A stretch of 64,000 bases of DNA from Tetradesmus obliquus (lineage: Eukaryota; Chlorophyta; Chlorophyceae; Sphaeropleales; Scenedesmaceae). Numbering within the stretch: position 1 is the first letter of the stretch; each line of letters starts with the position of its first letter. Under the pieces are notes generated by a model. That model was not told the origin of the DNA and ran no database searches. It was given only the letters and a program-made list of their open reading frames with translations. Location: the NCBI GenBank assembly GCA_030272155.1, contig CP126193.1, forward strand, positions 62,001 through 126,000, read 5' to 3'. Positions 25,544-62,679 of the stretch are shown piece by piece. A program made the translations under genes and the position numbers.

Positions 25544-28500
25544 ATGGTACAAGACATGGACTCTGGTCCCACTTTGCGGCCCATCGCCACTCGGCCGCGT
25601 ATGCCATCTTCCACAGGAGATGCAGTACCTGCTGCTCTGCCAACATCACCAGCAGCAGACAGGACCCCAAAAGTTGGACACCTCAACCTTGATGACAGCC
25701 CAGCAGGCACAACAGCAGCAGCAGGCTCCAGCTCCAGCTCCTCTACACCATGGGGCCGGCTCTTCACCAGCACAAGCCACATGATGGGCTTCTCCCCTAG
25801 GCTCAGCGTTGGTGCTAGCAGCAGCAGTGAGGGCAGCAGGTGAATGCCGTGCTCCTGCAAGACACGGCTGCCGTGTCATGCCTTGCAGGCATCTGCTACC
25901 GTATGGCATGCTGCAGTACAGCACGTGAAGCAGAGGTACTTCAGCGGCTGCTTACCTGCGTGGAGCCTGCAGGCCAACTGCATTACCTTACAAATGTTGC
26001 TTCCACAGAAAATCCCCAAATTGACGCCCTGCACCCATTAACGACACGCACTAGCTTGCAGTGTGCATAGTAAGCTACGTTATTCGCTCAACGCTTTCTG
26101 CCCCGCCGCCGCACACTGCAACAGCAACATCAGCACTCCAGTCAGGCGCAAGAAGCACCACCACCAAGAAGCGCAACGTGGCAGCATCCTTGCGTATCCT
26201 GCAGGCTCAGCTGCTGCACGCGCGCGTGGTACATCAGCGGCAGGATTGGGGCCTGCAGGGGAGATGCTGGGCAAGCAGGGCCTGGCCCTGAAGCAGCCAC
26301 TGGTGAGCTGCGCTGTACCTCTTGCAGGACTGCAGTTAGGACCTGCTCTTCATAGTGGCTATGCCAACTGCTATGGCAGCCTGCTTGGTCAGGCTGACAC
26401 ACAGAGCAGTGTTCAACAAGTTTCCTGCACCATCCACCAACACAAACATAATGTGTTCATTCATCAGCAAATTGGCGTTGCTGGTAAGCAACTGTGCTGC
26501 TGTTGAATGCCATGCTGCTGTTTGCAGGAAACCAGCCAGGAAGAGTATGCAGATACAGGTGTCAAGGCGCGCATCCCCCGCGATGAGCGCCCTGTGACAA
26601 AGCACTGGAACCCAGTGGGCCTGGTCATCTGCCTGTTCTACATCGCTGCGGCCATCTACTACTTTGTGATACGTGCCACGCGCACACTGGACATGGGCTA
26701 TCCAGGGTGAGTGGCTTTCAAGCAGCAGCAACTAAGGCACCTGGTTGCAGGACGCCATGTCGTGGAATTGTCAGCACAGGCAATGGTTTCCTGCAAGCAG
26801 CGGCAGGGCCCTAATATAGCAAATTGGTACGAAACCATGGTAAGGCATCCAGAGTGCGCCACCTGGGCAGAACAGGGCTGACAATGCATTCGCCATGCAA
26901 AGTCAGTCCTGCAAGAAGGCTCTTCTTCTCCTGCAAGCATTGAACGAGTTGAACACAGATGTGGGCAAGCAAGTCACACAAGTCATTACTGCATGCACAG
27001 CTGCCCTATTCAGATGCATGCTGTGTACTCACCTTGAGCTGCTCGATGTGCCGATGTTGCCTGCTGCAGCTATGGTGGGTTGGTGCTGGCGATAGAGGTC
27101 ATTCTTTCCACAGCAACATTCGGCTATGCAGTACTGCTCATCAAGCACACTCGCTCAAAGCGAACCAAGGGCCTGCCCATCAGCAAGAAGGGCGCATTGC
27201 CGCCAAACTTGGAGCAGTTACAGTTTCATGTGCGCGTGCTGATCCCTTGCTACAAGGAAGCAACGGATCTTGTGAAGGAGACTGTGCTGGGTGCGCTGAA
27301 GGCGCCGCTACCCAAAGACACACTCCGCACGGTGTATCTTTGCGATGATGGCAAGGATCCCTCAAAAGAAGCAATGGTGCGTGAGCTGAACAAGGAGTGG
27401 GGCTGCCTGGAGTATGTCAGTGGCCGCACGCGCGATCCAAAAGGTGCGTTGTTCTACGGGGTTGATGTGTTGGGAAAGGCAGCGGCAGCTGCATGCACTT
27501 GCTTCAGTGGTCCAGGCTCCTCCCATTGCAGCACTGGCTGTGGTGGGTTGCTATGACAGCAGCAGGAGCAGCGGCAAGGGTAGGGGTGTCATCATGAGCT
27601 GCATAGTTTGACCTGCAGCACCCAGGATATGGCGATGGCAGTTGCTGCAGTAGCTCTACTGTCCTGTGACCGCAAAGTCTTTGTGTGCTGCCATGTTGCT
27701 TTTTTGACATAGGCGAAACCAACGGCAAGTCCAACAACCTGAACCACTGCCTGACGAAGTTTATCTACAAGGACTACCACCCCTGCAATCCGCAGGGACC
27801 TAAGATCCCCAAAACTGAGGTGGGTGTGCAGGTGTCTGCATCCTTCATAGCATGCTTCAACTTCTGCTGATGTGTAAAGAACAGCACTGCTGTTTGAATC
27901 CATGCTTGTGCACCCCGTGATACGTTGGCACTGTCAAACACCGGCTGCAATAACCATATCCTAACTGTGCTGTTCCTACTGCATACAAATGCAGGTGATG
28001 GTCGTGTTTGACGCTGACATGGTGGCCCGGCCCAACTTCTTCACCAAAATCCTGGAAGTCATGCAGGACGATGACTGCGCACTGTGCCTCACCCCCCAGG
28101 GCTTCAACAACGTAGATGCCCAGTGCGACATCTTCAACAATCTCAATTTATCGTTTTGGGAGTACATGTTGCCAGGTGAGCAGGCATACCCAATCTGTGA
28201 CTCAGCCGCAAGTGGGTTTTAAAATTGTCAGCACCATCAATTTCAAACAGAAGTTCTGCACATCCAGATATCTGCAGCACTAACCAGCTGGTGCTTGCTT
28301 CTGCAACAAGTCCTTTGCTGTGCTGCCTGGTCATTTCCACCTGAAGGTGGTTGTATGTGCGTCCTGGCACCATGTCAGACACAAATCCTCACCTGGTATG
28401 CCTGGTGCTGCAAATCTTGGCCTTGCAGGAACGGACGCATTGGGCTACATTGCGTGTACTGGAACCAACTTCTGCCTGCGGTGCTACCCTCTCGCTGATT

Positions 28501-31500
28501 GCGGTTGGTTCCCGACCTTCACCATCACTGAGGTAAGAAGAATGATGGGTTTAAGCACCAGGTGCCCAATGTTCCAAACACTCTGTGTCAGGCTGGTGTC
28601 TGTTGTTGCAGCTTATTGGTAATGGTCACCCAACACTGTTGCATCGCTCCAGCAATTTATTACATATCAGCTGCTTGTGCTCCTGATCATACTGGCAGGA
28701 CTACTGCCTGGGCATGCTCATGAAGGCCAAGGGCTACAAGGCAGGCTACCTGAACGAGTACCTGGCAGTTGGCGAGGCCCCAGAGGAAGTGCGCAACGTG
28801 TTCAGGCAGCGCTCACGCTGGTGCAAGGGCCAGATGCAAGTAAGTGTATCCGGCAGCGCAGTACAGAGTGATGAATGTTGTCCCACACACTGTGATGCAT
28901 GGTAGGCAACCAGCTGCGGCTGTCAGAACGTTCGTTGCCATGCTTCATGTTTGCACCAGGTGAGAGTAAGCCCTCGCAGTGCGTGAGACCCTGGGGAATT
29001 GCACTGCCATTGTTGTAAGGCCTGCATCTGCAGGGATGTGCCTTTCATGAGCTTCAAACGGCTTTGTGTGCTGCCAGCAAGATTGTCACTGCAGTAACTA
29101 TTATGTTATGTTTTGACCCACTGCAGGTTTTATTTTCCAAGCACTGTCCGCTGTTTAACACGGGCCTCACGCTGGGCATGCGCCTGCTGTACACCTCAGT
29201 CACCTGGAATTACATCACCAACAGCCTGGCGGTGCCTTGCTCAGTGCTGGTGCCCTTCATCGCCCTGTTCTTTGGCATCTACCCTTTGGTGCTCAACCGC
29301 GATTTTGCGCTCGCCAGCACTCTGTACTACGCGGCATCAACAATGGTCACCATGGTGCGGAGCGTTTGTTCAGCGCTGCAGATGCATGCTTTCCCCTTGC
29401 ATCATGTTCCTTCTTCAACCACCTTGTCCGTGTGGTGTCCACTGTGCTTTCACTGTGACAGCTGCCTGCCCCTGATGCACACTCTTGTCACAACATACAC
29501 CGTGTAAGGATAAAGACAGCTGCCAGGTAGCGCACATGATGTCTGACCACCTGGCGCTGACCATGTACATTGTTTACAGTTTGCTGCTCTGCCCTGCCGC
29601 CTGGTCTGTTCCTGCAGTACTGCACCGACCGCAAGCACCTCAAGCCGCTCTGGTTCTGCATCGTTTCCTGCCACCTGTTATGGTTCACCTTCACCAAAGC
29701 AGTGTTCAACGTGCTGTTCAAGAAGATGGTGGGCAGGGTAGTGGTGTTCAAGTCCACCAAGAAGAAGGGCGAGGACGATGGCAGGGGTGATGGCAAGCGA
29801 CGCTGGTTTGCGCCACCTCGGAACATTGGAGACATGGAAGGCACACTGGATGCCTGGGTGCTGCTGCTGAGCTTCAGCATCTCTGCGCTGACTGCAATCA
29901 TGGGTGTGTTTCAAATCATCGACCAGCCATACACAGCACAGGGGCAGTTCCGCTTCTTCCTGGCACTCTCCATCTTCTGGGCCCTCTACAACATGATCCC
30001 GCCTGCGCTGTTCATCTTCTACTGCTACAACAAGGGGCGGCTGTTTGAGGACTTCTGCTCCTTCTGTATCACAGCCTCATTCCTGCTGGGCATCGGAGGC
30101 ACAGTGTGTACATGGCTGGTACCAGGTAGGCACAGCAGGAAGTGTGGGGATGCTGTGGCTAACCTGCATGTTGCTAAGACCTTTCTTCTGGTGCGCGTCT
30201 TACAATGCTCTTGCAACATTGTGCACCTGCAGATGACTACAACATGGGCCAAGTGCTCAGTGTGTCCCTGCAGTTCTTTGAGGCACAGGTGAGCTGCTGG
30301 CAGGTGCATGCCTAAGCTTCCCAGCAGGCGGCTGCATCAACTCCCGTCAACATCGCAGCACACAAACAGCCGCATGCATGCAGCCATCAGAACGGTGATG
30401 CAAGACCGACAGTCCGGGATACAGCTGGGATGATCAACCAATTTAGCAGTCACACAGCCCGTGCTTGTACTTCGTCCTGATCTGGCTTTGTTTGTGCCTG
30501 CAGCGGTCTGGCAAGTTGCCCAGAATTTCAAACACCCCTTGGCGCGGTGATTCTGGCCTGTGGGATTCTGTGCTGCTGCCCAATGGCAAGAACTACTCTC
30601 TGATTGGTGGATGGTATGACGATGGTGAGTTGCACAGCAGCAGGCACTATGCCTGTGTCTGCGTCATGGGCGACTGTCATTGGCAAGTGGTACGTTGTTT
30701 ATCGCTGGGCAACAGAAGGCGCTATCTGGTTTAGAAGCAGCCTCAGAGAACTACTGCACAGCCTCTCAGTCAACAATGCTGGCCATGGAAAGCTTGTAAA
30801 AGCCGCCATTCTGCACTCCTCTGTGACAACATTGACCAACGCCAATCCGTATATGCGCCATGCTGCACCGCAGGGGGCATGCTCAAGCTGAGCTACAGCA
30901 CTGCCTTCACAGTATCCATGCTGAGCTGGGCATACTACGAGTTCAAGGGTGGTTACAAGGCTGCCAGCAGCGTGGACTTTGGTGCCAACACCATCCGCTG
31001 GGGTGCAGACTACCTCATGAAGGCGGCAGCGCTCAACGTCACCAGCGGCGGCGTTGCAGTGCCGCCCATCTTTGTCGCACAGGTGGGTCATATCAACCTT
31101 TCCATGTGTCACTGTGAACCGCGCCACAGTAAGCAAACATGCTCGTTTCTATGTTGTGCAGCATGCATCAACTGCTCAGTCATGACCCCGTGCAGGCACT
31201 CTTTGATGCCCATCCTGCTCTGCTTCTGCTTCTCCTGCAAACCTGTGTGCTGCTGCTTAGGTGGGCGACATGACCAAGGACACCGCCTACTGGGGCTCAC
31301 CAGAGCGCTGCATGCTTGCACGCCCTGCCACCTACCTCTCCTCCGCGCGCCCCGGCACGGATGTGATGGCCATGTCTGCGGCTGCACTGGCTGCAGCAGC
31401 CGTGGCGATCCAGGATGAGTCGATGGAGGTGGCTGACATGTACCTGGCTGAGGCCATGGGCATCTACAAGCTGGCATTGCAGTGGCCAAAAGGATACTAC

Positions 31501-32548
31501 GCCAATTATGTGGAGAGCGGCAAGCGCTACCCATCAGTGTCTATGTATGATGACCTGGCGTATGCTGCAGCCTGGCTGTACACAGCGACAGGTCAGCAGT
31601 CCTACTTGGACAGCGCAGTCAAGTTTTACAGCCAGCACACATCAGCAGAGCGTCACGTAAGCGCCAACCTATACATGTTCAACTACGAGAACGTGGTTCC
31701 AGCACTGGACCTGCTGTTATACAAGGCCACCGGAGACCAAGCGTACAAGCAGAATGTGCAGGGCTTTGTGAAGGAGTGGATGAACACACACTCAGCATCA
31801 GGTGATGTGTACTACACACCGCGCGGCCTGGCGAAGGCAGAGCCTGAAGGGCTGCTGCAGCACACTGCGAACGCAGCGTTCTACACGCTGCTGGCTGCCA
31901 AGGACGTGCTGGACAAGAAGAAGTTCATGCTCTATGCGTGCTGGGCGCGCGGCCAGATTGGCTACATGGTGGGAGATGCTGGGCGCTCTTATGTGACAGG
32001 TGAGCACTGGATGGCACGGGTCGTGGTGGCGTGCGCAACGTGATTGGTCCAGTCAGGTTCGACAGCATGTAACAACAGCATCTGTTGCGCCATCAATGTT
32101 GTGCATGCTTTTCGTCGCGATGGCCGCCTTCTTGTGCGCTGTGCTGATGCATCTGCTGCAATGTGCGCCGCGCTCTGCAGGTTATGGAGCCAGCCAGGCG
32201 CACAAGACCCCGCACAAGGCCGCCTCCTGCCCGCCTGCTGACGTGGCCGACTGCACCTGGGAGTCCGCCTACTACACCACAGACCCCAACTACCACACGC
32301 TGCGTGGCGGCCTGGTGGGCGGGCCCGATGACAGCGACATGTGGTCTGACGACCGTGACATGGGCAATGCAGCCAACACAGTTGGCTTGCTGAACAGTGC
32401 TGGCTTCTCTGCAGCAGTGGCGGGGCTGGTGCAGTTTGATATCAACATGGCCAAGTGCATGCAGGGCAATGGCTTGATCCAAACCCTGATGCTGAAGTCC
32501 ACGGGGCTGCCGCCTGCATCTGGTCAGCGCTGGTGGCAGGGCATGTGA
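25544..32548 (+). CDS. Fusion of GT2 cellulose-synthase-like enzyme with a GH9 (cellulase-family) domain
   Basis: Fifteen exons join in phase at GT-AG sites to 1262 residues: 25544-25839, 26125-26302, 26528-26706, 27070-27443, 27713-27819, 27995-28175, 28429-28532, 28699-28839, 29127-29354, 29618-30125, 30233-30288, 30504-30624, 30874-31082, 31261-31999, 32181-32548. Residues 1-185 are polar and disordered. Membrane helices lie near 188-206 and 221-242. The GT2 catalytic core has CDDG (309-312), NGKSNNLN, DAD (384-386), TED (472-474) and QRSRW (510-514), all the motifs of processive beta-glycan synthases. More helices follow near 541-595, 607-626, 676-697, 707-731 and 742-763. From 766 the sequence is GH9: FFEAQRSGKLP, WRGDSGL, GGWYDDGGMLKL, FTVSMLSW, IRWGADYLMKA, DDLAYAAAWLYTATG, QIGYMVG, GGPDDSDMWSDDR. 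The catalytic Asp and Glu of GH9 are replaced (see findings). It probably makes a cell-wall beta-glucan or mannan at the plasma membrane or Golgi; the product is not determined. Exon 2's acceptor is the least certain. Confidence 0.88.
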
Positions 32549-33170
32549 GCACAATCGGACGGGTCTGTTGATTTAGCGGGTGTGGGTGCAGTCAGCAGTG
32601 CAGCTGTGTGAGCTGGGAATGCTTCAGTTCCAGTGGGCTGTATGCATAGCGTGCACAGCACGTTGGCTGCATTAAGTGAGTGCATTGCTGGCCTGCATTG
32701 CAACAACTTGACTACCATTCTTTGATTGTTGGACTCTAGGGGGATGTCTGCTGCACCCCTGTCGTGGCTGCGGCATTGGTGGTTCTTGACACAGTTCTGG
32801 TTTCATAATATTGGTATGAGGGATGCTATCGAGCTTCATCCATGTGCATTCAATGCGTGCGTTAGAGGCCAGCCGTGCTTGTTTGTGCACCATGGCATGG
32901 TAGCACTGCAGGTTACATAATGTAACATGACGCAACATGCAGTGGCAGTTTGGCACCCTCATGTTCTCATGCATCTTGCATGGCAGGTGCGTACCCAAGA
33001 ACATCACTTTCACTTTAATCTGGTACCAACAGCACACATAACTCAACGTCAAGAAGGGAGGCCAACAAGCCCTGCTGGTGTGCTGCTGCTTCGTAACCTG
33101 TTTTGGTCGTAAATCAAAGCGACGGTTTCAAAGTAGGGGAAATATTGTGAAGTAGTCTTAACCTGCACAG
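32549..33170. other. Intergenic stretch between synthase and DIM1
   Basis: No gene seen. It holds the 3' UTR of the GT2-GH9 gene and, near its right end, the promoter and 5' UTR of DIM1. A TTACA/TGTAA palindrome lies at 32913-32925. Confidence 0.45.
32913..32925. terminator. Palindromic TTACATAATGTAA, likely poly(A) signal
   Basis: The plus-strand TGTAA at 32921-32925 is 373 bases after the synthase stop and is the likely poly(A) signal. The inverted TTACA just before it makes the site readable on both strands. Confidence 0.35.
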
Positions 33171-39107: not shown

Positions 39108-41622
39108 TCACCACATAAACCTAGCAAGTGATCCGTCGCCCCAGGTGTAAGGTCGCCGCGCAAACACCCACAGCGTGGCAGCGTTGACGCAGCAGTAGCC
39201 AGCAACCACCAGCAGCGACAGCCGCACAGGCGGCACTGGCATGTGCAGCACTGCCAGCGCAAAAGCAGTGGTGAAGTACCTGCAACACAGGCACCACAGC
39301 AGCCACATGCAGCAGCAGAGGAGTTCGACAAGTGAAACGATCAAGGCCAGAAGCACAGCGTCAAGCACCTGTCAAGTTTCATGGCCGCTCACTGACTGCC
39401 TGGCAGGCACAAGGGTCTGTTTGCACAGCCACGGCAGCAAGCTCGCCATGCACACAGCTGCCACTGAAATTTTGAATATGAATGGTACACCGCAGTGGCA
39501 AGCAGAGCAGCTCAGGCTGGCCAGCAGCTGCGCCATGTACAGTCAGCGCACGCCCTCACCCCGCGGCATTATGTCCCAAGCTGCCCACCCAGCCATCCAG
39601 CCACCCAGCCGCACCTGAACTCCAGCAGCCAGGCAGGCGCAAGGCTGAGCCAGCAGCAACACGCAAACGCGGCGCGCCACAGCCAGTGCTCGCCGCCAGC
39701 AGCCAGCGCCGCCAGCAGCAGACCCCAGCCGGCCACGTAGGCGGGCACCGCAGCCAGCCGCAGCACGCCACTCCTGGCGAACAGCTTGCGCCACAGGTAG
39801 AAGGTGTAGTGGCGGTTGTCTGCCAGCAAGTAAGGGTGCACCAGGCTGAAGCGCTGCACACACACGGCAGCTGCGGCACACGCACACACCGCGCACAGCA
39901 TGCACAGCAGGGGCGCATCAGACAGCGCGCTGCGCACGCGTGCCAGCACGGCTGGCTGCAGCAGCAGCGGGCCAGCGGCAGCCAGGCAGAACAGCGCAAA
40001 GTACAGCGGCTGCATCAGGTGCAGCGTGGGCGCATGTGCCTCCTTGTCACCGAGCGTGATGCCTCCGTTCCACACCACAAAGGCGACAAACGCCACCGGC
40101 AGCACCAGCAGCAAGCAGTAGGCCTGCAGTAGCGCTGCCCGCCGGTCCCAGGCACTGCGCAGCACCGCCTGCAGCTCAGCCAGCATGCCTAGCACGCCAC
40201 CCCGCTGCTGCTGCTGCTTCTGCTGCTTGGCTGGCTGTTGTTGCCGCTGCTGTTGGCGCTCCTTGCTTGCTGTGCTTGAGCCACTGGGCGCTGTGCTGGC
40301 TGGCGCTGCTGCTGCTGCTGGCTGTGGCAGCACCTCCCTCAGCATGGCTGCTCCTGTGAGGAAGGTGACCCACACTGCATTGGTCTGCCGCATGCCAATG
40401 GCTGCTGCGCCTGCTGCTGCCGCCGCATACGTGCTGCGCCTCAGCAGCAGCAGCTCCGTGAGCAGCACAAACAGAAGAGAAGGCACATCTGTGTAGAAGA
40501 GGAAGGCGAAGAAGAGCTGCGTGGGCAGCAACCCCACCACCAGCGCCACTGCTGCGGCTCCAAGGTGCACCTGCTGCACCCTGCTGCTGCTGCTGCTGCT
40601 GCGCTGCTGCCTCAGCTGCATACTGACGGCGTACGCCACCTGTATGGTTGCCACTGCCAGCAGCGCGTTGACACTCCTCAGGAAGGGTCCCGAGCATGTG
40701 ACGTCCTGCAGGCATGCACAAGCAGGCGAAGCACGTGTTGTGTAGTGACGCACTCAGCGTGTTGCCACCATGGTGTCAGCCAGCTAGCTGCCTGAAAGCA
40801 TAGCTGCAATTCCCTGATTGCCAACTAATTGCCAACTTATTGCCAACTGCAGCACCTCGGCGCGCCTGCAACAGGGGCTGCTGGGCTGAAGGGCCAAACC
40901 ACACAGCCAGCTGAGTGCAGCACAATAACAGCAGGCACTGATGGATGCTGCTGAGGCAGTGCAATTCCCTGGCAGTTCATGAGGCAGGAAAGGGCATGGC
41001 TCAGCCATCCCCAGCTGCTGCTTGAGGCAGCACCAGCTGCGGCCAGTGCTGTGCACGCTGCTGTGTGTTGCGCCGCCACTGCCTGCTGAGAGGTGCACAG
41101 CAGCTGAGGTGACGCACCAGGTCAGCGCCGGTCCAGCGCAGCAGCAGCTGCGCCGCCCATGCGTATGCGGCGCCGATCACGTAGAGGCCTGGGAAGGTTG
41201 TTATCTTTGCATCCCATGTGAGCAGCTCTCCCCTGCAGTACAGCTGCGCCATAGGCACGTGGAACGGCTCGTCCTGCAAGCATAGGGAGAGGGTTTGTAG
41301 AGTTCACACCAGATGCTGCACAGGTGACAAAGGCTGCGCTGCAGTTTTGCAGCAGACAAGTATGCAACGAGGATTGCTGCAGTGACAAGTGTGCACACGG
41401 GTGCTTGCTGGCTCGCGATGAGTACAGTCGGTGTGCACGTACGCACTGCCGCTGGCCTGCTGTGATCACACTACGGCAGCAACGCACCATGTAGCTCTCA
41501 GGTACATTGACAGCGATGAATGATGTGATCCCCAAGGCAATTGTCATCAGACATACTGTCCAGGTGACTGGCAGCCAGTGTATGGGCTGATGCTGCTGCA
41601 GTGCTGCACCTGCAACCGGCAT
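39108..41622 (-). CDS. ALG10: ALG10 alpha-1,2-glucosyltransferase (dolichyl-P-Glc dependent)
   Basis: Four exons on the minus strand (41488-41622, 41118-41273, 39615-40705, 39108-39279) join in phase to 517 residues, close to plant ALG10. The hallmark YMDEPFHVPMAQLYC spans the first splice junction, followed by WDAKITTFPGLYVI. Further family motifs are CSGPFLRSVNALL, FFAFLFYTDVPSLLFVLL, IGMRQTNAVWVTFL, LGDKEAHAPTLHLMQPLYF and RFSLVHPYLLADNRHYTFYL. The protein is a multi-pass ER membrane enzyme with many Leu/Ala-rich helices. It adds the last (third) glucose to the lipid-linked Glc2Man9GlcNAc2 donor for N-glycosylation. The central cytosolic or lumenal loop carries an Ala/Gln/Lys-rich insert. 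The start is the ATG at 41622 giving a short N-terminus before the first helix. It is divergent from the VMA22-like gene. Confidence 0.92.
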
Positions 41623-42056
41623 TTTGAGCAAGGGGAGACTGTGTACCGTTGCGGCGTATCAGAGTATCAAGGATCTTGGGTGTTGACCGGTTCCGGGTCT
41701 TTGTGCATGAGTGCCCCAGCAACCTCAGCAAGTGTACTGCTTCTGTTGTGATGGTTGTGCTGGTGATGCAGCTTCGGCTGCGAGCGATTCTATAATATGA
41801 CTGCATCCAATTTAACAAATGCATACATGTTTCAAATTGAAGGTGTCAACGCACCGTGAGCAGAGCTTTGACAGCTCTTTTCAGGACCGAGACCACGAGG
41901 GTTTGTGTCTTGTCTTGCCAGACTCGCCACAGCCTTGTGATAAAACATGTTGATGGCAACAGCAACATCGCATATTACTTTGATCGCGTTCTTTTGGATA
42001 ACCACAGGCCCGGCAATTTATTCGACTTGTCAGCAGCAGCAGCACCTCTGCACACC
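41623..42056. promoter_or_regulatory. Shared 434-bp region of divergent ALG10 and VMA22-like genes
   Basis: The two start codons face away from each other over 434 bases. An open frame runs upstream of the VMA22 ATG without another ATG, so the true 5' UTR may extend well into it. No clear core promoter motif is seen. Confidence 0.4.
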
Positions 42057-42653
42057 ATGGCACCTACAGAGCAGGAGTTCTTCTCAGCCCTGCAGTGCAT
42101 AGAGGATTACCTGAAGACACAAGATATGCTTGGAGGCGCCCTGAAGGATGGCTTGCTGAACTTAGCGCGTGGCAAGTACACTCTTGGCAGCAGCCTGGGG
42201 CAACAGCGGTACCCAGGCGACATGCGTGCGAGTGCACTGCTGCAGCCCTGCCCTGCTGGAGCTGAAGATGCCATTTATGAGGAGTTCAGTCTGCAGACTG
42301 TCACCGTGCAGCATGCAGGCCAGATGCACCACACCAACAGTACAGCAGAGCAGCACCAGCAGCATGGGCAGCACGAGCAACAGCCTGAGCAAGAGACTGC
42401 TGGACGCACCGCAGCAGGCGCTGCAGTTGCAGCAGCAGGCTCTGAGTCACTCAGCGGCAGGCATGCCTGCAGCAGCAATGACCCATTGGCGTGGTTCTCA
42501 GCGCTGCCGCCGCAGCCTGTGAGGCAGGCGCAGAGCGACTTCGCAGCGGCGCTGCAGCATGCCGTGGCCGCTGCCAACGCGCTGCAGCGGCTGCGGCAGC
42601 TAGCAGCAGACTTGGGCTTGCAGGAGGAGGATGCTGCGTCAGACGCAAGCTGA
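42057..42653 (+). CDS. VMA22: VMA22/CCDC115-like V-ATPase assembly factor
   Basis: A single exon encodes 198 residues, rare in this intron-rich region. The N-terminal helix pair FFSALQCIEDYLKTQDMLGG and ALKDGLLNLARGKYTLGS, and the C-terminal DPLAWFSALPPQPVRQAQ followed by FAAALQHAVAAANALQRL, match the two conserved ends of CCDC115/Vma22. In yeast Vma22 works with Vma12 and Vma21 in the ER to assemble the V0 sector of the vacuolar proton pump. The middle (about 95-145) is a His/Gln/Glu/Ala low-complexity linker. The C-terminal helices look coiled-coil. The start is the first ATG in the frame, just ahead of the conserved helix. Confidence 0.8.
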   Translation: MAPTEQEFFSALQCIEDYLKTQDMLGGALKDGLLNLARGKYTLGSSLGQQRYPGDMRASALLQPCPAGAEDAIYEEFSLQTVTVQHAGQMHHTNSTAEQHQQHGQHEQQPEQETAGRTAAGAAVAAAGSESLSGRHACSSNDPLAWFSALPPQPVRQAQSDFAAALQHAVAAANALQRLRQLAADLGLQEEDAASDAS

Positions 42654-43784: not shown

Positions 43785-44726
43785 GACAGGAGATAGAGTC
43801 AGTAACACGCCATCAAGGTGCACAGCAAGCGTACACCAAGTGTGCAACCAGTTCCAGCCAACATGATACAAATCAACAACAAAGCACTGCACTGGTCCGT
43901 CGCCAGCATCCTTGGCACGCCCGCCGGCAAGCTTGCGCCACATGCACAAGCACACAAGCACGCGGCACTAGCACTGTACAGGCACGTCCCCTGCCAGCAC
44001 CGTCCCCTGCTCACCAGCTATGTGGCTACGGCTGGCTGAGCGCTGGCTTACTGCTACTGCGCTCAGCACCAAGCTGATGTTTCAAACCCTGTTATATTGA
44101 CCAATAAGCCAGAGTGGTGTGTTACGATGTTTGTCCTGCAAATGCTGGCAAGCTCGCCAGCTGCCAGGCCCTCCTGTGCACTCTCTGTCCGTGCAACCGT
44201 GCTCGTGCCCGTGCTGACAGCTGCTTGCTGTGCTGTGCGCGCATCGCGGCCTTGCCTGCCCTGCCGTGCCTTGCTGACTTTCTGCTGCTGCACCCAAGCC
44301 TGCTGCCTGTCTTGCTGCCCCTCCCCAGCGTGCCCGCCCGCCACCCGCAACCCGCCGCACCTCGATCCTGCCGTGGTAGGCGAAGCCTCCCCTGTCAAAG
44401 CAGACCTTGCTGATCTGCTTCTCAGCGCACAGCTCAGCCACCTTCTTGCCCACAGCCTCGGCGGCAGTCTGCAGCAGGGGGCGGCAGCGACACATAAGCG
44501 TGAGTGCAGCCAGGCATGAGGGCAGCAGGCTTGGCTGCAGCCTCAAAACATGCAACCAGCACACACGTTGCACAGCAGCGCAGACAGCAGCGCAGCTGAC
44601 AGTAGCACTGAACGTTTGCTGCAGCACCGCTCTGCGCACCAGAAGGAGCGAGATGATGCCACCCAGAGGCACAAGCTGCACAAGCATCAGCACCACAGCA
44701 GACCATATGTACCTCGCTAGCCGCTA

Positions 44727-47149: not shown

Positions 47150-48450
47150 TCAGCTGCCTGCTTGTGTATCTGCCGGAACTCCTGCTGCTGCTGCTGCACT
47201 GCTGCTACTACTACCGCTAACCACACCCAGCCACTGCGCTAGCTGCTTCACCCATGCAGGCTGCACCAGCGTGCCCGTAGGCAGCGCAGCAGCTGCACGC
47301 GCCGCCAGTGGCTGCACCACGGGTTCGGCTGCTGCCGCCAGCGCCTGCAGCAGCGGCCGCAGCGCGATGCGCACCCGCTCCGCTTCACTGAGCGGCGCCA
47401 GGCCACCAGGCGCTGCCGTGATGAGGCGCGGCGCGCAGCGCGGCTTGCAGGTCTGCGGCTGCATCACTGCCCTGCTGGCGGCCCAGGCTGCAGTGTGCCC
47501 CGGGTTGGCATCGCCCCGCATGAGCGCAATCATGAAGGCGGTGGCAAAGGTGTCCCCAGCGCCGTTGGTGTCCACGGCTTGCGGTACCTGCAGCGGCAGC
47601 CATGAAAACAACAAGAGGACCAGCGAGTGGATGCGCAATGCGAGAATGCCAGCTGTGCGTCCCCAGCTGCTGAAAGCAAAGCTGCTCGTCCAATGTATGC
47701 CCTGGCATGACAGCACTGCGCAGCGTAGCAGCCAGCACTGACACAAGCCTGCTGCAGCCCATGCATATGCGGCTCCAGCAGACCAGCTGCGGCACGAGCA
47801 GCCCGCCATTGCTGCCCTGCTGACATCATCAGCCCTGCTGTGAGCAGTGCACAGCACGCAGCCGCAAAGGCACTTGATGCGATTGGCATGCAAACCGCAC
47901 ACACGCACACCAGCACACACTGTGTTGACTGTGAGCGTCTGGGCGTGCGTGCATACCTTCACAACAGGTATGTGCTGTGGCTGTGCTGCGCTGCGCGGCA
48001 CCAGCAGTGCGCCTTTCTCCCCGAGTGTTATGATGGTGCGCTCACACGCGCCAGCCACCGCCTCCAGCTGCTGCTGCGACCAGGTGTCAGTCTCCACATC
48101 AGACAGGAACAGCGACACACGGGGACCAAGGCCATCCTGCAAGGAGCAACAGTTCACCAAAGTGCTTGTTGACGTCGCTGTCGTTGCTGCTGTTGCTGGA
48201 AATTGCAGGACGTGCGGCACCAACAGGAACATGGCGTCATAACACAGACCTGACAACTGCTACCAAATACACAGAGCCGCATGCCGCAATGCTGACAGCT
48301 GCGGAACTGCATGCGTCATTTGGCTGCATTCGCACTTCTCGAAGAGCCGCCTGCGCCAAGGCGCGGGAGGGTGCAGCTGCACGCTGGCCTGCTGGGCTGA
48401 GCCTGCTGCCACGCAGCCTCGCAACCACTGGCTAGCTCCTGTGCACTGCC

Positions 48451-58503: not shown

Positions 58504-60463
58504 ATGGAGGACCCAGCACAAGGTACGGAGAAACAAACCAAACAACAGATAGCACATGCAGCAGAGGCAGGCCTCAACAAGAACACCGTATAAGAAGCTC
58601 GCATCACAGCTTAAAAACAGCATAGCAAAGTCAGTTGGGAACAGCGGGCGCATTGGATGCAAAAAGAGCGGGAGCGGGAACAAGCGTGCACGCTTCGCCT
58701 GCTCGTGTTCAGCAGCCTGCTTTCAGCCATGCGCAGTGACAACAGCTAAAGCTCTAAATGCCGTGTTGCATGCAGCGACGCAACCCTTCGAGACCGCCTG
58801 CTTAGCACTGGTGTTGATGTTGTCTGCACCTTGCAGTGTTGGGCTACTCTGAGCTGTTCCAGCGCGTTGTCCCTATCGAGCTGCGCAGTTTTCCTTCGTC
58901 AGCTCTTCTACAGCGACTTTTCACCAGCAGCAGCTGCCCCAGCGGCCTCAAGGAGCTCTACTCTGACCTGTCAGACTCTGCAGAGGGCACCTCAAACAGC
59001 ACATTGTCAGGATGCTCATCGCCCATGTCCAACACGAACAGCAGCGCAGGGGTGGAGATGATGAAAGTGCGGGTGCTATCACATGTGGTCGGCGGCATCA
59101 CTACATCTGTACGGGTGAGTGCGGTCATTCACCTCCACAGCATTCACATGGCAAGACTGCTGCTGCTCTCAAAGCAGTTCACCAGCACAGACCTTATTTG
59201 CGCACCAAACTATACAGCTGCCTGCATCTATTGCCAGCTTGTACGTGGGTTCCAGGTCAGCATGCCGCAGACCGATGTACAGCGCAGAAACACAGGATGC
59301 CGTGGCAGCGAATGACATTGTTTGTCACCGTACAATGGTGCAGCAGTTTGAATGCTCTGCCTTTGCTGCTGCTTTGCATGGCTCGTGTGCTTCCTGCAGG
59401 TTGAGCTCTCCTGTGATGCAAGCTTATTCTTCCACTACAGCGCAAACGTGTCTCCATCTGCGTACGAGGACATTAAGGTATGGCGCGCGTGCTGCATTGC
59501 TGGCCGTTGCTACATGCAGCAGCTCTTGCAGGAACACTGGCCACCTGCAGCTGGTCTGGCATATGCAATGGACCATACAGTCTGCATGCTTTGTGTTAGT
59601 TTTCGTCCTGCCAGCACAATGGGCAGCCGCGGCAAGTGCCTAGCATGGTGCTGCTGCAGCAGCCTCCTCGCCAGCTTTTCACTCCTAATCGTTCCTGCAA
59701 GCACTCTTGCAAACCAGTGTTCCCTCCTGCCCCTGATGCACTTGCAGGAGGACTGCGGACTGGTGGTGGACTTCGCCTCCTTCCCTGCTCTGCTGCTGAA
59801 GCTGCTCAACCTGCTGGTGGAGCAGCCGTCCACCTACCTGGGGCTGCTGGTGCTGCGCACAGACGGCAGCGCAGTGTGGGAGTTTGCGCAGAACCTGGAG
59901 TTCAAGGCCATGTCGCTGCTGTCCATGCGCGTGGAGGCGGTGCCGCAGGTGAGCTTGGGCAGGCTCCTGCAGTGCTTACATGGTCAGTAATGTGCATGCT
60001 GGCAGCGCCAAGGAGAGTTGGTCGCCATGTGTTTGTGATGCTGGCTCACGCGTAAAACTGATGCACATCCTGCAGGCCATGGTGCGCTGCTACGTGACAA
60101 TGCGGCACAACAGCGTACTGGAGCGCTGCGCTGAACTGGAGGCAGAGCTGTTTGAGCTGAGGTCGCTGGTGAGTTGCTGCTGTGGACTGTGTACAGCTGT
60201 GGCAGCATCCAATGGCAACGAGTGCAGCAGGTACAGCATAACACAACTGCTGATCTAAGCTCAGAACACTTTGTGATGCTGCTGTTGTCCTGCCACAATA
60301 ATGACCTCTTTTGCTGCTTCACGGCAACTCTGCTCCTGTACAGGTGCGCCAGCGCTGCCCCAACCTGCTGCAGCTGGGCAAGACTGCTCGCGCCAGCCCC
60401 ATGACCAGCCCAGCCAGCATGCGCAGCACACAGAGCCCAACACACAACAACTACGCAATGTAA
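58504..60463 (+). CDS. SAS6L: SAS-6-like centriolar protein, N-terminal head domain with short tail
   Basis: Six exons (58504-58522, 58837-59114, 59400-59477, 59748-59948, 60076-60168, 60344-60463) join in phase to 262 residues. The head domain of SAS-6 is visible: FQRVVPIELRSF (first strand of the PISA region), MKVRVLSH, then VELSCDASLFFHYSANVSPS, AYEDIKEDCGLVVDFASFP, LLKLLNLLVEQPSTYLGLLV, FAQNLEFKAMSLLSMRVEAV and AMVRCYVTMRHNSVLERCAE. SAS-6 heads pair to make the nine-fold cartwheel of centrioles and basal bodies. Normal SAS-6 continues with a long coiled coil; here only one helix (LERCAELEAELFELRSL) and a Ser/Thr/Pro-rich tail follow. That shape matches SAS6-like (SAS6L) proteins. An insert rich in Ser between strands 1 and 2 is unusual. 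Exon 1 encodes just six residues and part of a seventh, and is uncertain. SAS6L rather than a truncated true SAS-6 is inferred. Confidence 0.72.
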
Positions 60464-61496: not shown

Positions 61497-62679
61497 ATGC
61501 CTGCCAGCAACCGTAGACCGCTGTACAGCGATGAGGAGCTGCAAGCTGGTGCCTCAGCTGCTGCTGTTGCTGCTGCTGCAACCCCAGCCTTGGCAGCTGC
61601 TTCCTCTCCAGTGCAGCCTGCGCTGAACAGCACAGAACCCGCACTTGTACAGGCAGGGGATACTCCCTTTCGTCAACCATGCACCCTGAAGGGTGTGGCA
61701 TCGGCAGCATATGCTGGTGCGTGCTGGATGCTGCTGCCACTGCTGCTGGGCTAGGTGTTTGTCTGAGGTGACAGCTGCTTGCTTGTCTGGTCGCTGCACT
61801 GCATTACAACATGCATTTTGGCCGCCAAGGGCTGTCAGCTTCACGCTTGTCACGTGTGCGTGTTGCTGTGCAGGTGCGCTGGGCTACTTCCTGGGCTTTG
61901 TGCCTGCAGCCATCAAGTTCAAGGGCCGCCAGTGGGGCATGGTGCATGTGCAGGGCGTGGCGTCAGCCTCGCAGCTGGCCGTCATGAGCGGCATGTACAC
62001 CGCGGTGCACTGCATCTGCCAGCGCATCCGCAGCGTGGAGGACGGCTGGAACAGGGGCATCGCGGGCTGCAGCACAGGCCTGGTGCTGGGCTGGAAGGCA
62101 GGGCCCTGGTCAGCGCTGCAGTCCTGCGCCGGCATTGGCCTGCTGTCCGCGCTGATCGACCTGGGGGGAGGGGCAGCAGAGGCAGCAGAGGCGAGCATGC
62201 TGGGCCAACTGCAGCAGGCGCAGCAGCAGTGCCAGCTGCATGATACAACAGTAGCAGGTACTCCCCTTGATTTCCTGGCACCGCTGCTGGCGTCGATAGG
62301 TCGGCGGCAAACGCAGCAGCAGCGGCTTTTGCAGCAGCAGACTGTGCAGCTGCAGCAGGACACGGTTCAGCCTGGCAGCAGCAGCAGCAATCCTGCAGGC
62401 TGGCAGTTTGGGCAGCAGCATCTACAGCAGCAAGCACTTGCAGTGTTTCAGGCAAACGGCCTGCAGCCTGCTGTGCGGCAGCTCAACGCAGCAGCACAGC
62501 TGCTGGTGGCAGCTCCCCCGCTGGCATTTTTGAGTGCCTGCTGCAGCAGCCCAGCAACGCCAGACCAGCCGCTGTCACGAGCAGCGGCCGCAGCAGGAGG
62601 GCACGTGCACGCAGTGGATGCTTGTGCAGTAGCAGCTGCAGATGTGCTGGTTGGTAGGAGGAACGGCAGGCGGCACTGA
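61497..62679 (+). CDS. Tim17/Tim22/Tim23-family membrane protein
   Basis: Two exons (61497-61716, 61874-62679) join in phase to 341 residues. The core crosses the splice site: TLKGVASAAYAGALGYFLGF, QWGMVHVQGVASASQLAVMS, GMYTAVHCICQRIRSVEDGW, NRGIAGCSTGLVLGWKAGPW and ALQSCAGIGLLSALIDL. The four Gly/Ala-rich helices, the RxxxDxWN-like loop (IRSVEDGWNRGIAG) and the TG pair before the third helix are the Tim17 superfamily pattern. Members sit in mitochondrial inner membranes or chloroplast envelopes as protein or amino-acid pores (TIM22, OEP16, HP20/HP30). The C-terminal 170 residues are Gln-rich low complexity ending in a His/Ala/Arg stretch, far longer than in standard Tim22, and the N-terminal 60 residues are Ala-rich. 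The exact subfamily and compartment are unclear. Confidence 0.72.

Follow-up and report, generated by a model that had tools for sequence, protein, structure and literature searches.

Does one green-algal gene encode both a polysaccharide synthase and a cellulase-family domain, and, if so, can the second half still cut the chain that the first half makes? The question is raised by positions 25,544 to 32,548 of a 64,000-nucleotide stretch of Tetradesmus obliquus DNA (contig CP126193.1, positions 62,001 to 126,000; hereafter "the window", meaning the whole stretch), in which an earlier note, made from the letters alone, had seen a single gene for a GT2 synthase fused to a GH9 domain. The gene joins both halves, and the catalytic base and acid of its GH9 domain are lost. 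With a probability of roughly 0.6, its product is a membrane-bound synthase of a beta-glycan, to which a GH9 helper that does not cut is tethered at the exit of the synthase channel.

A single gene joins a GT2 synthase to a GH9 domain

The gene was rebuilt from the sequence as 15 exons on the plus strand (Table 1). The coding sequence of 3,768 nt translates into 1,255 amino acids (aa) followed by TGA. All 14 introns are of the GT-AG type and the exon phases are compatible; the exon structure given in the earlier note was correct to the base, as was its phase-1 splice across the junction, where exon 10 stops at 30125 with one leftover base and exon 11 opens at 30233. The GT2 and GH9 profiles lie in one reading frame of the protein (Pfam scan). 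The claim that no polyadenylation signal separates the two halves holds for the junction intron (30126–30232), in which neither TGTAA, which we take to be the green-algal signal, nor AATAAA is present, but not beyond it: TGTAA occurs at 29503 in intron 9. The same motif is found in other introns and, past the stop codon, at 32921.

The junction is also found in relatives of the window protein. P0001, with which it shares 79% identity across the whole searched part (aa 160–1255), as well as P0002 and P0021, are named in their sources as complete open reading frames (ORFs; "ORF type:complete") on records with the prefixes GHUV or GHRR, which presumably denote transcript assemblies. P0001 (GHUV01000347.1) is continuous across the synthase–GH9 junction (..CTWLVPDDYNLGQVLNVSLQFFEAQRSG..), and so is P0002. 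In a paralogue on contig C6 of the T. obliquus genome (L018 5695–5450, minus strand), the last membrane helix and the GH9 start lie in one stop-free stretch without an intron at the junction point. That two genes were wrongly joined, with a boundary near 29618–30504, is hardly credible: no transcript of the window gene was seen, which would suit such an error, but the single-stretch junction on C6 and the fused ORFs on transcript-like records speak against it, as does the lack of a hydrophobic leader from the last helix to GH9 in a hydropathy scan (a signal-peptide predictor was not part of the analysis). Separate synthase and GH9 genes were rejected on the first two of these observations, and the single gene, as claimed before, is confirmed.

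The GT2 half is matched by PF13641 (aa 265–509), PF13632 (aa 374–563) and PF03552 (aa 456–565, 30 bits), and the D, DxD, TED and QxxRW motifs of processive GT2 enzymes are all present (Table 1). Of FxVTxK, which we take as the name of the gating-loop motif, VFKSTKKK keeps F and T-x-K, with Ser in place of Val; an FxVTxK-like motif was found in most rows of the motif table. The closest solved structures by sequence are bacterial BcsA (E 2.6e-24, next 9e-16), followed by plant CesA. A PilZ domain was absent from the protein in the Pfam scan (E 0.001), as was GH6; GH9 was found instead and comes after the last membrane helix. Hydropathy indicated two helices ahead of the GT2 domain and five stretches behind it (541–576, 597–623, 664–692, 700–726 and 730–758). 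Matching helices are present in the structure model of the relative P0003, in which six residues separate the last membrane helix from the first GH9 helix. By analogy with CesA, the protein probably crosses the membrane seven times, with GT2 in the cytosol and GH9 outside the cell. This topology would place GH9 on the wall side, as the earlier note had asked.

Judged from its sequence, the most likely product of the GT2 half is a beta-1,4-linked glycan, probably glucan; the enzyme would push the chain through its own channel. A mannan or glucomannan product, with the GH9 fold re-used for that chain, is unlikely but deserves weight. The walls of Haematococcus and Scenedesmus are rich in mannose (PMC9372998, PMC8618704), and CslK and CslL have been proposed as green-algal mannan synthases (PMC9915684). 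On the other hand, sequence and fold are nearer to BcsA/CesA among the solved structures, the gating-loop-like motif recurs in most rows, and cellulose has been attributed to the inner wall of S. obliquus (PMC9372998, citing others).

The GH9 half has lost its catalytic base and acid

The second half matches the GH9 profile (PF00759, 293 bits) but lacks the catalytic base Asp and acid Glu. In the alignment to the solved GH9 structure 1ks8, GGYFDAGDFVKF is replaced by GGWYDDGGMLKL and DYVHNEVATDYNAGF by MGNAANTVGLLNSAGF. If the base Asp of DAGD and the acid Glu of NE.....N have their catalytic roles at the aligned positions, as we assume, the catalytic triplet of the window protein reads D/G/T: the base has become Gly-819 and the acid Thr-1200, while the first Asp of DAGD is kept as Asp-816. 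A splice error as the cause of the base loss was ruled out, as the C2 paralogue carries GGWYDDGGMLKL in one stretch. The GH9 fold is retained in the structure model of a relative. By sequence, the domain is a member of GH9 by descent without a working enzyme; since both base and acid are lost, hydrolysis in the known way should be impossible. An active cellulase was rejected on these losses together with further changes at conserved positions.

The same pattern is seen within the genome (104.7 Mb, 17 contigs; the window gene lies on contig C3). Six loci with GT2-joined GH9 were found, the window included; the others are on C2 (L017), C6 (L018/L019), C12 (L024), C8 near 1.59 Mb (L026) and C14 (L031), the stretches on C12, C8 and C14 holding C-terminal parts of GT2 only. 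The catalytic Glu is kept in none of the six fused loci (the acid segment of C14 being a weak alignment), compared with all eight resolved unfused GH9 genes; two further unfused genes stand outside the eight, and L030, with an alignment of 33 bits only, was not counted as resolved. The base Asp is kept in the C12, C8 and C14 fusions (YMAADYVK, YMGADYVK), and both catalytic positions are lost in C2 and C6, the closest paralogues of the window protein. The remodelling of a wall glycan through GH9 cutting, as the earlier note had envisaged, is not supported: both positions are lost in the window protein, C2 and C6. No GT2 match was present at the other GH9 loci fetched (E 1e-6, 9.9-kb stretches). 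The C6 paralogue matches T. obliquus protein P0005 at 1169 of 1178 residues. P0026 of T. obliquus (792 aa, annotated as GT2 only) matches the C12 locus, where GH9 exons come next, and its annotation probably stops too early. Repeated exon-like stretches were noticed in C6 (L018, about 7977–6983; RLLYTSV at four exact places) and in C12 (L024, about 9287–8789; YLLVPMLWALYNAL at four places), for which alternative exons are one possible explanation and artefacts of the assembly another.

It is very improbable that the domain still hydrolyses via substitute residues, editing the new chain in the manner attributed to KORRIGAN and BcsZ. The fold in the relative's model, the retained Asp-816, purifying selection on the domain and the existence of motif-intact fused relatives would all fit, but the changes of base to Gly and acid to Thr are accompanied by others at conserved positions, and close relatives carry T, I, S, R or A at the acid position, a variability out of keeping with a relocated catalytic residue. 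We prefer a synthase with a non-cutting helper: a BcsA/CesA-type processive GT2, probably with seven membrane helices, would carry an extracellular C-terminal GH9 fold a few residues past its last helix, and this tethered fold would hold, align or hand on the new chain, or join neighbouring synthases. The gene, its domains, the catalytic residue loss, the purifying selection and the fold in the relative's model are shown by the data. From these we infer the chain-guiding or assembly role, the glucan product and the position of GH9 outside the cell.

Fused relatives and the weight of the evidence

Besides the window protein, 57 proteins, some of them partial, have both GT2 and GH9 domains. The carriers belong to the Chlorophyceae (Tetradesmus, Raphidocelis, Monoraphidium, Haematococcus, Chlamydomonas sp. 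UWO 241 and C. eustigma), the Trebouxiophyceae (Myrmecia, Symbiochloris, Elliptochloris and Apatococcus) and the Ulvophyceae (Bryopsis), according to the classes in which we presume these genera to be placed. In the three protein searches, scoring was limited to candidates with most words in common, and the list is no evidence of absence from streptophytes, prasinophytes, Chlorella or Chlamydomonas reinhardtii. The earlier note had proposed a search for double-domain proteins of chlorophytes and had regarded two separate genes in all close relatives as evidence against a fusion; full-length fused homologues were found, the family occurs in core green algae, and its members carry both domains.

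In the fused set of 58 rows, which includes the window protein and partial proteins, the acid Glu is kept in 18 of the 53 proteins with a readable acid column and the base Asp in 26 of the 55 with a readable base column. GT2 is partial in P0105, P0106, P0118, P0098, P0082 and P0083; GH9 is cut short in P0035 and P0042, the acid column is misaligned in the partial P0030, and the end of P0017 is apparently frame-shifted. Motif-intact GH9 domains occur in fused proteins of the Bryopsis type and in one trebouxiophyte type (P0107 of Symbiochloris, P0197 of Elliptochloris); these two trebouxiophyte genera also hold motif-dead copies (P0198; P0109, P0115). All named chlorophycean fusions in which the acid position could be read are dead; it was not readable in the Haematococcus rows. 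The UniRef name of several fused proteins is simply "cellulase", which is probably wrong for the motif-dead ones.

The mirror case, a broken GT2 with an intact GH9, was found as well. In P0085 of Bryopsis and its close relative P0084, the TED and QxxRW regions are broken (EELGEFG and REHSTW in P0085) and DxD is kept; in P0094 of Bryopsis, TED is kept and DxD and QxxRW are lost. The GH9 catalytic residues are intact in all three proteins. If these sequences are real and not mis-assembled, the family would also have yielded cut-only members.

Intact and dead states require one change in the GH9 tree (10 of 68 rows left out). With two distant proteins as its root, the GT2 tree (14 of 64 rows left out; one outgroup, P0081, covers 34% of the columns) has intact forms branching first and dead forms in one group (86/86), which also contains some proteins without GH9. 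With moderate support and with long branches present, these trees fit a history in which the GH9 was of the active type when it was fused and the loss came later, once. The ancestor would have been a fused protein with GH9 catalytic residues, and the loss would have occurred in one old paralogue; the dead paralogue is so far the only type among the named Chlorophyceae. More tentatively, and with rather less confidence than in the non-cutting helper itself, the family may comprise proteins that make and cut, proteins that only make and proteins that only cut: a tethered cellulase would have been built before its uses split, the dead paralogue being a pseudo-cellulase with a guiding or gating role for the chain and the Bryopsis members the reverse. 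If true, this would document the stepwise conversion of a hydrolase into a component of polymerising machinery, parallel to tunicate CesA-GH6. Because intact-GH9 and broken-GT2 members coexist in the family, the question of cutting can be tested by direct comparison.

That the dead GH9 is a passive remnant without a role of its own is improbable, too. Related algal proteins without GH9 (P0028, P0032 and P0034) are compatible with it, but may come from truncated gene models, of which P0026 is an apparent example. The domain, however, is kept near full length in many lineages, and its ratio of nonsynonymous to synonymous substitutions (dN/dS) of 0.19–0.25 over 457 and 475 codons indicates purifying selection, although only stretches aligned at 55% identity or more entered the calculation, and this lowers dN. 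This restriction is one of several points that weigh against a synthase with a non-cutting GH9 helper. Catalytic loss is not confined to fusions: D/D/E is present in 32 of the 38 non-fused rows of the first table, the others being P0016 and P0045 (both from the tunicate Styela), P0044, P0046, and the misaligned or cut P0068 and P0079. Hand-picked non-fused GH9 controls kept D/D/E in 18 of 18 cases, but two of them (P0105, P0118) carry a GT2 piece and are therefore counted among the 58 fused rows too, and P0016, P0044, P0045 and P0046, without the full catalytic set, stand outside the 18. Other strongly conserved positions, presumably in contact with the substrate, are altered as well (His-869, His-895, Arg-1087 and Trp-1029, in a comparison with 14 intact fused proteins and 17 of the 18 controls), and a chain-binding role is weakened by these changes. 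The inner forks of the GH9 tree have values of 75/45 and 32/4, and the predicted topology depends on hydropathy and on the model of the relative P0003. Finally, Scenedesmus walls contain glucose and mannose (PMC9372998), so that a mannan synthase is possible.

Some observations concern single proteins. P0016, P0044, P0045 and P0046 are GH9 proteins without a joined GT2 in which the first Asp and the active-site Glu are missing, and the last three also bear PF00086. In P0197 (1963 aa), a kinesin domain (PF00225) is joined to the motif-intact GT2–GH9 fusion, probably by annotation. P0212 (884 aa) combines a GT2 synthase with a GH8 domain (Pfam); our guess is that it is bacterial. In the rest of the window, tRNA and Rfam scans gave no matches, and the matching frames among the 20 covered by the open-frame scan showed no sign of a wall gene cluster (Table 1).

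Table 1. The fusion gene and other matches in the window (window positions)
Feature	Position	Strand	Basis
Exons 1–5	25544–25839, 26146–26302, 26528–26706, 27070–27443, 27713–27819	+	rebuilt from sequence
Exons 6–10	27995–28175, 28429–28532, 28699–28839, 29127–29354, 29618–30125	+	rebuilt from sequence
Exons 11–15	30233–30288, 30504–30624, 30874–31082, 31261–31999, 32181–32548	+	rebuilt from sequence
Exons 1–3: low-complexity N-terminal region and first membrane helix, aa 1–210	25544–26706	+	exon model; hydropathy peak aa 176–203
Exons 4–8: second membrane helix and cytosolic GT2 catalytic domain with YLCDDGK (D), VFDADMV (DxD), TITEDYC (TED), RQRSRWC (QxxRW)	27070–28839	+	Pfam, motif table
Exon 9: channel helices following GT2 domain	29127–29354	+	hydropathy peak aa 541–576
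Exon 10: hydrophobic stretch 597–623, gating-loop-like VFKSTKKK, last three membrane helices, end TVCTWLVP	29618–30125	+	hydropathy, motifs; matching helices in P0003 model
Junction intron between synthase and GH9 halves: 107 bp, GT-AG, phase 1	30126–30232	+	exon model
Exons 11–12: GH9 fold start; with exon 13 give GGWYDDGG-MLKL in place of active-GH9 DAGD	30233–30624	+	alignment
Exons 13–14: GH9 (alpha/alpha)6 domain body	30874–31999	+	PF00759 aa 765–1194, 293 bits
Exon 15: GH9 domain end; catalytic Glu position is Thr-1200 (NAANTVGLLNSAGF); HHR region is TPHK	32181–32548	+	alignment
Stop codon TGA	32546–32548	+	exon model
ALG10 match	39572–40753	-	open-frame scan
Vma22/CCDC115 match	41841–42650	+	open-frame scan
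Ribosomal L18 match	44085–44723	-	open-frame scan
pfkB kinase match	47153–48259	-	open-frame scan
SAS-6 match	59352–59987	+	open-frame scan
Tim17 match	61690–62676	+	open-frame scan

Comparison with known systems

The window protein shares the BcsA-type synthase core and fold; unlike BcsA, it has no PilZ match and continues through an extra helix into GH9. Bacterial BcsZ, of family GH8, and plant KORRIGAN1 (KOR1), whose active site is intact, are separate proteins, whereas the GH9 of the window protein is built into the synthase and has lost its catalytic residues. KOR1 resembles it in being a GH9 protein with a role in cellulose synthesis, and importance for synthesis is ascribed to KOR1 and to bacterial glucanases alike (PMC13181414). 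CslK and other GT2 synthases of the Chlorophyta are likewise green-algal GT2 proteins, but a GH9 domain is not mentioned for them in the available portion of PMC9915684; this comparison was made by description and not by sequence. A description of a GT2–GH9 fusion was not found among the papers listed in targeted searches of one open-access library (one listing showing 20 of 150 papers), in line with the earlier note; subscription papers and preprint servers were outside the scope.

A close likeness is tunicate CesA, in which a GT2 cellulose synthase is followed at the C-terminus by a cellulase-family domain; this domain has been kept without its catalytic Asp, and the authors of that work suggest a possible novel function for it (PMC7464555). 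The domain is GH6 in the animals and GH9 in the window protein, and the algal fusion is presumably an independent parallel. Unlike in tunicate CesA, motif-intact fused relatives survive in the algae, by which the step from cutter to non-cutter becomes traceable. Why cellulose synthesis needs a cellulase is an old puzzle, posed by KOR1 in plants, GH8 in bacteria and GH6 in tunicates (PMC13181414). A conserved synthase with a covalently attached, non-cutting GH9 would speak for an answer that lies in part outside hydrolysis, in the handling of the chain or the assembly of the complex.
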